Assembly: GCA_024644875.1 (NCBI GenBank)
Contig: JAHEGY010000037.1
Span: 1 to 40,065 of the forward strand
DNA from: Cyclobacteriaceae bacterium
Lineage (GTDB): Bacteria; Bacteroidota; Bacteroidia; Cytophagales; Cyclobacteriaceae
Reading direction: 5' to 3'
DNA: 40,065 nt
A program made the translations under genes and the position numbers. This document shows positions 6,261 through 8,380 of the stretch, one piece after another. Under the pieces are notes generated by a model that ran no database searches, was not told the DNA's origin, and was given only the letters and a program-made list of their open reading frames with translations. The number at the start of each line of letters is the position of its first letter. The first letter of the stretch is position 1.

Positions 6261-6836
6261 TTATATATACAGTTTTCTATCTCTGATAAATTCAGCCACT
6301 TTATCAGGGACGAGGTACTTGATAGATTTTCCCAGTTTTACGTTCCTTCGAATAAAAGATGAGGAAATATCAATTTTAGGGGCATCAACAAAGGTAACAT
6401 TACGATGAGTCTTAAGTTCTGTGTCCTTTGTATGCGGCCTTGGGTAGACTATTAATCCGTAATTATCAAGAATGATCTCATAATTCTTCCACTTTTTAAA
6501 GCTCACCAGATTATCTTCTCCAATTATGATGCGGAAATCATGACCCGGATATCTTTCTTCCATGTGAACGAGTGTGTTTATTGTATAATTTGGTTTTGGG
6601 AGATGGAATTCAATATCAACCGCCTTAAAATTGTGCTGATCCTCAATGGCCCGTTCAACCATATCTATTCGATCAAACTCATGGATGAGTGATTTGCTTT
6701 GCCTTTTATGCGGATTGAGCGGTGAAACGACAAACCAGATTTCATCTACATCGGTATACTCATAGATTGTGTTGGATACGATCAGATGCCCATTATGAAT
6801 AGGATTAAATGAACCAAAAAAAAGTCCTGTTTTCAA
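6261..6836 (-). CDS. nadD: Nicotinate-nucleotide adenylyltransferase
   Basis: NadD transfers AMP to nicotinate mononucleotide to form deamido-NAD in NAD synthesis. The protein starts KTGLFFGSFNPIHNGH, the nucleotidyltransferase H-x-G-H signature, and ends with SSSFIRRNVKLGKSIKYLVP, the ISSTxIR-type motif of the family. At 191 residues it has normal length. Its start codon must be TTG at 6836: the codon just before it is the in-frame TAA stop of gmk (6837-6839), and no ATG lies between that stop and the essential GSFNP motif. Translation therefore probably depends on coupling to gmk. Confidence 0.95.
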   Translation of the reverse strand: MKTGLFFGSFNPIHNGHLIVSNTIYEYTDVDEIWFVVSPLNPHKRQSKSLIHEFDRIDMVERAIEDQHNFKAVDIEFHLPKPNYTINTLVHMEERYPGHDFRIIIGEDNLVSFKKWKNYEIILDNYGLIVYPRPHTKDTELKTHRNVTFVDAPKIDISSSFIRRNVKLGKSIKYLVPDKVAEFIRDRKLYI

Positions 6837-7412
6837 TTAAATCTTTTTTAAGAATTTTTTTACGATCTCTTCTGTTTCCTGTTTAGCGATTTGAAGGACA
6901 TCGTTAGTAATAACCACATCAAAATTTGATTGATATCCCATCTCTGATTCCACCTTTTCAATTCTTTCCTTTAAGCTTTCATTATCTTCAGTACCTCTTG
7001 CTTTCAGTCTCTGCTCCAGTTCAGAAATATCCTGAACTCTTATAAATATTGATAACCCATCCTCTTTAAAATATTTTTTCAATTGAATCGCACCTTTCAC
7101 ATCTACGTCAAATATTATAACCTTCCCATCAGCCCAGATCCTTTCTACTTCTGATTTTAAAGTGCCATATAATGTTCCAGAATAAACTTCTTCCCATTCC
7201 ACAAAATCTCCATTATTTATCCTATCCATCATTTCTTCTTTACTCAGGAAATAATAATCCCGTTTATCAGTTTCTCCCTCCCTACTCTTCCTGGAAGTGG
7301 CTGATATTGAGAATTGTAATTGAGGGATCCTATTCAGTAAATATTTTACTATTGTGGTTTTTCCGGATCCTGACGGTGCGGCAACAATTATTGCTTTCTT
7401 AGCTGACATCAT
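6837..7412 (-). CDS. gmk: Guanylate kinase
   Basis: Guanylate kinase converts GMP to GDP. The 191-residue product has the P-loop APSGSGKTT near the N-terminus, the GMP-binding SATSRKSREGE segment, and the family-typical YGT, DVDVKGA and KARGTE motifs. The start is one of two tandem ATGs (7412 or 7409), both inside the last codons of the upstream anti-sigma gene (14-nt overlap from 7412). Its TAA stop abuts the nadD TTG in the same frame. It sits in a four-gene minus-strand operon with an ECF sigma factor and its anti-sigma factor. Confidence 0.97.
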   Translation of the reverse strand: MMSAKKAIIVAAPSGSGKTTIVKYLLNRIPQLQFSISATSRKSREGETDKRDYYFLSKEEMMDRINNGDFVEWEEVYSGTLYGTLKSEVERIWADGKVIIFDVDVKGAIQLKKYFKEDGLSIFIRVQDISELEQRLKARGTEDNESLKERIEKVESEMGYQSNFDVVITNDVLQIAKQETEEIVKKFLKKI

Positions 7413-7692
7413 CAGAAGGATTTAAGAAAGAGTCCTTCACCCTTTTTTTCAACTCAACGATCAACTCTTCAGGTGCCTCTTTTACCTCCAGTTTTTTTCG
7501 AATAGCTGCCCGGATAGATTGTTCCAGTTTGTAATATTGGGCGCAGTCAAGGCAGTCCCGAACATGTGCATAAAAAAAAGCTTCTTCGTCCTTGTTTGCT
7601 TCACCATCAATAACCAGGTTTATCACATGAATACATTTTTCATGATCGGGACAAGGTTTCTTAACATTTTTCAATTTTTCTCTGCGTGCCAT
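7399..7692 (-). CDS. Zinc-binding anti-sigma factor (ZAS type)
   Basis: This small 97-residue soluble protein has no membrane segment. It contains C20, then H43-x3-C47-x2-C50 (YAHVRDCLDC), the zinc-binding anti-sigma (zf-HC2/ZAS) pattern seen in redox-responsive anti-sigma factors such as RsrA. It starts 9 nt after the ECF sigma factor, its likely partner, and overlaps gmk by 14 nt. The intact Cys/His set suggests it binds zinc and may sense oxidants, but this is inference from the family. A charged tail (EELIVELKKRVKDSF) follows the zinc motif. Confidence 0.82.
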   Translation of the reverse strand: MARREKLKNVKKPCPDHEKCIHVINLVIDGEANKDEEAFFYAHVRDCLDCAQYYKLEQSIRAAIRKKLEVKEAPEELIVELKKRVKDSFLNPSDDVS

Positions 7693-7701
7693 TTTAATAT
7701 T

Positions 7702-8280
7702 CTATTTATATCCCATTGATCCGGCATACCTCTTTAACTTTTCCCTGAGCAGATTTCTTGCCCTGTGTAAGCGGGATCTGATCGTGCCTATTGGTACATC
7801 AAGGATCAATGCCATTTCTTCATAAGAAAATCCCTCAATGTCACATAATATTATCACTGTTCTAAAATCTACTTCCAGAGAATTTAAGGCAATGGATACT
7901 TCATCGCCGATCATCTCTTTTATTGCTTCCACCTGAAGATTAGAAGTGATCATATGATTCAATTCATCAGAATTATAGAAAGCCTCAACCTCCTGGTAAT
8001 CTATCTTTACAGGCTCTTTATTCTTCTTTCGAAATTCATTTATAAAACTGTTCTTTAAAATTCGGAACAACCAGGCCTTCGCATTAGTTCCCTTTTCGAA
8101 AGAATCAATAAATCTAAATGATTTTAAATAGGTTTCCTGGACCAGATCCTTTGCATCATCTTCATCAAATGTAATCCTGTAGGCGAAATTATATATGGAA
8201 TGAATATGAGGGAGAAATTCCAGTTCGAAGATTTCAACTTTTTGGTTAGGAGAATATCGTAGTGGGGTTCTCTTTCTCAT
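7702..8280 (-). CDS. RNA polymerase sigma factor, ECF subfamily
   Basis: This is an alternative sigma factor. Region 2 (about residues 25-90) contains YNFAYRITFDEDDAKDLVQE and the following aromatic FIDSFEKGTNAKAWLFRI, which bind core and the -10 element. Region 4 (about 125-180) ends in a helix-turn-helix GFSYEEMALILDVPIGTIRSRLHRAR. The ATG at 8280 is preferred; an in-frame TTG at 8289 is possible. A TAACTTTG box at 8287-8294 lies so close to the start that the transcript would be nearly leaderless if it is used. It heads an operon with a ZAS anti-sigma factor, gmk and nadD, and resembles the SigR/RpoE-like stress class. The regulon is unknown. Confidence 0.93.
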   Translation of the reverse strand: MRKRTPLRYSPNQKVEIFELEFLPHIHSIYNFAYRITFDEDDAKDLVQETYLKSFRFIDSFEKGTNAKAWLFRILKNSFINEFRKKNKEPVKIDYQEVEAFYNSDELNHMITSNLQVEAIKEMIGDEVSIALNSLEVDFRTVIILCDIEGFSYEEMALILDVPIGTIRSRLHRARNLLREKLKRYAGSMGYK

Positions 8281-8380
8281 CTTAATCAAAGTTACATAAT
8301 TATTTAAATGATGCCATATACAATTATATCAGAAATTGCACTAAAACAACATTCTTGCGAAATAGGTTCAGGTTTTTGTA

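Follow-up and report, generated by a model that had tools for sequence, protein, structure and literature searches.

Contact between the gmk stop codon and a UUG start of nadD in a Cyclobacteriaceae genome: an ordinary gene pair in a family in which the nadD start appears often to be weak

Does the direct contact between the stop codon of gmk and the start codon of nadD have a function of its own, or is it one arrangement among many of an ordinary gene pair? The question was raised by the window analysed here, a stretch of 40,065 nucleotides from a Cyclobacteriaceae bacterium (assembly GCA_024644875.1, contig JAHEGY010000037.1). Both genes lie on its minus strand and encode proteins of 191 aa: gmk, guanylate kinase, starts with ATG and occupies 6837-7412 (TIGR03263; PF00625), and nadD, nicotinate-nucleotide adenylyltransferase, starts with TTG and occupies 6261-6836 (TIGR00482; PF01467). 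NadD scored 174.9 bits against TIGR00482 over residues 5-190 (curated cut-off 112.45) and Gmk scored 197.1 bits against TIGR03263 over residues 6-185 (curated cut-off 160.45), which places each protein within its family, and we regard both predicted identities as firm.

The sequence and the open reading frame list place the contact at 6834-6839 of the minus strand, where the gmk stop TAA (6839-6837) is followed directly by the nadD start TTG (6836-6834), exactly as the initial annotation had described, in the context ...AAA AAG ATT TAA TTG AAA ACA GGA CTT TTT TTT GGT TCA TTT AAT CCT. The annotation had also pointed out that stop and start abut in a single frame. This is true, but it is not a separate observation, since a spacing of 0 automatically puts the two genes in one frame; contact and shared frame are therefore one fact and not two. 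Its claim that TTG must be the start of nadD held up. In the nadD frame this TTG is the sole ATG, GTG or TTG codon ahead of the GSFNP motif, and a start farther upstream is ruled out because the in-frame TAA blocks it. The start codon lies at the same place in relatives, seven codons ahead of GSFNP, in 37 of the 39 family (Cyclobacteriaceae) genomes and in 18 of the 20 other Cytophagales genomes. Exclusion and the shared position together support the assignment of UUG as the predicted start of nadD.

The exact contact was seen in the window alone. Of the 35 family genomes with a measurable gmk-nadD distance, none of the other 34 had a spacing of 0, and neither did any of the 11 other Cytophagales genomes in which the distance could be measured. 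Across the family the spacing ranged from -4 to +179 and was 20 nt or less in 26 of the 35 measurable genomes. In the same-genus relative G001, the sole other genome compared for the genus, gmk ends with TGA and TTG follows after 4 nt, the gmk stop being in another frame. Algoriphagus formosus (locus L034) has its nadD TTG 3 nt past the end of gmk. When spacing was measured from alignment starts at 139 loci, gmk lay upstream on the same strand at 90, within 250 nt at 78 of these, and zero spacing occurred at the window's own locus only. The family and order counts derive from 59 genomes searched, 55 of which contained nadD, and from four more family genomes added afterwards; the genomes with no nadD match (G024 and G032 in the family, G047 and G057 in the rest of the order) are outside the counts, and 9 of 135 loci, of the Pedobacter type, were missed by the motif pattern and are outside the family counts. 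A crude open reading frame scan of 306,824 bp of the same genome (the window plus 266,759) returned 62 co-directional pairs within 30 nt of each other. Two of them had a spacing of 0, and both read TAA followed by TTG. The second is formed by a DksA/TraR zinc-finger gene and scpB, which has a TTG start (L196 (G000:C59), minus strand, 786). Because the same contact occurs twice in one genome, it is uncommon but not singular. The exact contact at gmk-nadD looks like a local accident.

The start codon itself was then compared among genomes. No ATG was present within 25 codons before GSFNP in 21 of the 39 family genomes (15 TTG and 6 GTG), while nadD started with ATG in 18; the corresponding non-ATG count in the rest of the order was 2 of 20 (p 0.0015). 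Control genes of the family seldom lacked ATG: gmk in 1 of 35, coaD in 1 of 30, adk in 0 of 30 and coaE in 1 of 30, the last by a looser rule that accepts any ATG within about 21 codons and finds one in 29 of 30. Automatic start choice for coaE gave 25 ATG, 3 TTG, 1 GTG and 1 without a start. For coaD, adk and coaE, 41 genomes were searched per gene and the 30 best loci used, and the ATG rule reached 25 codons for nadD, 21 for gmk and coaE, and 19 for coaD and adk. Pooled, nadD at 21/39 stood against 3/125 for the controls (Fisher p 5e-13, relatedness ignored). The starts of coaE mostly overlap the preceding gene and are nevertheless mostly ATG; hence close packing by itself does not lead to non-ATG starts. 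A tmk control based on the dTMP kinase model TIGR00041 was left out, as a match at E 1e-20 was obtained in just 5 of 41 family genomes (4 over the cut-off), compared with 11 of 14 control genomes. As a separate observation, these matches are consistent with a divergent dTMP kinase, which the family may use.

The crude scan of the same genome put the background far above the level in the four control genes, with TTG or GTG as the first start in 17 of the 62 tight pairs, a figure that overstates such starts because the leftmost start was taken. The nadD count of 21/39 still exceeds this background (p 0.011). In one clade, which comprises ten genera and has 100/100 support, every nadD start is non-ATG, at spacings of -4 to +13. 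A tree was built from 59 rows of NadD joined to Gmk; the family does not form a single clade in it, 25 of its 56 inner branches lack resolution and the bootstrap is not settled. Explaining the distribution of ATG and non-ATG starts on this tree takes no fewer than 11 changes, 7 of them within the family. Labels shuffled on the same tree needed 18.4 changes on average, and in 0 of 500 shuffles was 11 reached. Branches with strong support require a minimum of 5 changes, and any change may be a gain or a loss of ATG as far as this tree can tell. Judging from these comparisons of predicted starts, a weak nadD start recurs through much of the family, a mild lineage-specific twist on an otherwise ordinary pair. 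Literature searches returned no paper on a TTG start of nadD or on TTG start codons in Cyclobacteriaceae, and the titles and abstract openings retrieved for the gmk-nadD operon, a Gmk-NadD fusion and non-AUG or UUG starts held nothing on the gmk-nadD pair.

The relation between this start and the distance to gmk was also considered. Family genomes with nadD no more than 20 nt from gmk comprised 16 non-ATG and 10 ATG starts, and those beyond 20 nt comprised 1 and 8, respectively (p 0.018, relatedness uncorrected); a single clade supplies ten of these 16 close pairs with a non-ATG start. Four family genomes had no gmk upstream in the examined stretch, which was about 2,000 nt for G005, G012 and G025 and 616 nt, to the contig end, for G022. 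In all four, nadD still starts with TTG or GTG, and gmk coupling is therefore not what keeps the start weak. The nearest upstream long open reading frame ends 45 nt (G012), 18 nt (G022), 11 nt (G025) and 61 nt (G005) before nadD in these genomes, so that coupling to another gene is possible.

We consider it probable that gmk and nadD are an ordinary co-directional pair in which nadD carries an inherited weak UUG, and that the spacing of exactly 0 is just one among the many that the family tolerates, with no special function; this judgement covers the reading as a whole. Its observed parts are the TTG as sole possible start, the reappearance of this start in related genomes and a spacing that varies among them. 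NadD would be translated from a UUG inherited as a weak start within this branch of the Cytophagales. The two genes are co-directional with stop and start in contact, as in coupled pairs whose stop and start codons overlap or lie very near each other, and since the spacing is 0 they are likely to share one mRNA. A ribosome that has terminated at the UAA would cover the adjacent UUG, a geometry favouring handover, and ribosomes ending gmk there would probably supply part of the initiations of nadD. The weak UUG, in turn, would hold NadD output below that of Gmk. Reinitiation by the same ribosome, as the initial annotation had proposed, is plausible by analogy with reporter tests, in which, according to the available part of PMC10666635, reinitiation depends strongly on distance and is strong only at very short distances. 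The same portion of that source gives the losses in Escherichia coli relative to the native overlap as 5 to 70% for a 2-nt gap, 40 to 80% for 14 nt and nearly all for 38 nt. Several observations count against the ordinary-pair reading, namely the 18 of 39 family genomes with ATG, the 17/62 background, the weak start kept where gmk is missing upstream, the origin of most close non-ATG pairs in a single clade, and the T at position -3 of the window's nadD start, which has A at -6. In Bacteroidetes, translation starts with no Shine-Dalgarno sequence and A is preferred at both of these positions, as stated in the accessible part of PMC6847099.

The strongest competitor is initiation that takes place without any coupling to gmk, the 30S subunits finding the nadD UUG de novo on A/U-rich, unstructured mRNA. 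The junction is indeed rich in A and U and folds no better than shuffled sequences, relatives tolerate spacings up to +179, G005 has its TTG start 61 nt past the end of the nearest upstream same-strand long frame, and the initiation without Shine-Dalgarno sequences just described would suit this mode. The concentration of non-ATG starts near gmk speaks against it, with the uncorrected relatedness noted above, as would the handover favoured by a ribosome covering the UUG. We judge uncoupled initiation to be unlikely. Selection might also act on the start itself: the nadD start of the family could be kept weak (UUG or GUG) to throttle NAD synthesis even away from gmk, and coupling to gmk, where it occurs, would then tie NAD output to guanine-nucleotide synthesis. 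We put this forward as a tentative idea that we think less likely than not.

A sequencing error had been named in the initial annotation as something that would refute its claim, and an error of assembly or base calling, with a true sequence that carries ATG or a spacer, was considered here. In favour of an error, the assembly is a draft in 254 contigs, but both frames are intact and full length, and TTG stands at the same place in G001 and in 13 other family genomes. Because the same-genus genome has TTG there too, an error is an unlikely source of this codon; we dropped it as a candidate and consider the error explanation as a whole very improbable. Relatives with a normal ATG and a spacer, which the annotation had named beside it, do occur in part of the family, where ATG starts and spacings other than 0 are found as given above; the remaining part has the weak start.

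The initial annotation had further suggested that reading through the stop would yield a Gmk-NadD fusion, and that relatives be searched for such fusions. Stop and start share a frame with nothing between them, as would be needed if ribosomes read through the UAA often or in a programmed way. However, UAA is a poor stop codon for read-through, and the contact is missing from the other family and order genomes in which the distance could be measured. None of the 90 loci with an upstream gmk has it in one open frame with nadD. A survey of 118 genomes of the phylum, each of which gave a nadD match (in one genome divided between two contigs), likewise produced no fusion: the nadD open frame reached at least 331 codons in four and was at most 264 in the rest, too short for both enzymes. 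With the window's Gmk as query, a weak one for distant relatives, the four long nadD frames and two more gave no match at E 1e-3. Predicted folding of the mRNA at the junction was not above that of shuffled sequences (z +1.09; 170 of 200 shuffles folded at least as well), and a special RNA structure at the junction was dropped as a candidate on this ground. Since the contact is not conserved and no fusion was found in the 90 loci or in the 118 phylum genomes, the idea of a functional fusion made by read-through has no support, was dropped and seems to us scarcely credible.

The genes preceding the pair run in the same direction on the minus strand. A small protein of 97 aa (7399-7692) resembles RsrA-type anti-sigma factors, with 39.3 bits against TIGR03988, below the cut-off of 62.5, and no Pfam match. 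Its gene shares 14 nt with the start of gmk (7399-7412), and gmk may therefore be coupled to it. Farther upstream lies an ECF-type sigma factor of 195 aa as listed (7702-8289; PF04542, PF08281; TIGR02937 at 86.1 bits, cut-off 42.9). A close match to this sigma factor (E 1e-20 or better) was present at 33 of 35 family loci with an upstream gmk and at 6 of 20 other order loci; the RsrA-like candidate between the sigma factor gene and gmk is weakly conserved.

Little depends on the contact itself, which is confirmed as sequence and ordinary as biology; the weak nadD start of the family is the only part worth noting. Non-ATG starts in excess across the family at a single essential gene of NAD synthesis, next to a gmk that starts with ATG, would give a simple example in nature with which to ask if a weak start codon is retained as a means of limiting an enzyme, and if contact between genes makes up for the weakness where Shine-Dalgarno sequences are not used. 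Among known systems, the pair resembles the termination-reinitiation coupled pairs described in the portions available of PMC6728339, PMC10666635 and PMC12548453 in that its genes are co-directional with stop and start touching, and some relatives have gmk and nadD in the classic 4-nt overlap (ATGA, GTGA or TTGA). It differs in its spacing of 0, the commonest being -4 or -1, and in its UUG start. Close gene spacing is widespread according to the same portions of these sources, and the gmk-nadD contact is thus another instance of a known arrangement. The gene order, with gmk upstream on the same strand, is that of Cytophagales and other Bacteroidota, in which spacing and start codon vary; zero spacing was seen in the window alone. 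The DksA/TraR-scpB contact of the same genome shares the six bases, the geometry and the TTG start of gmk-nadD, and involves genes unrelated to gmk and nadD.
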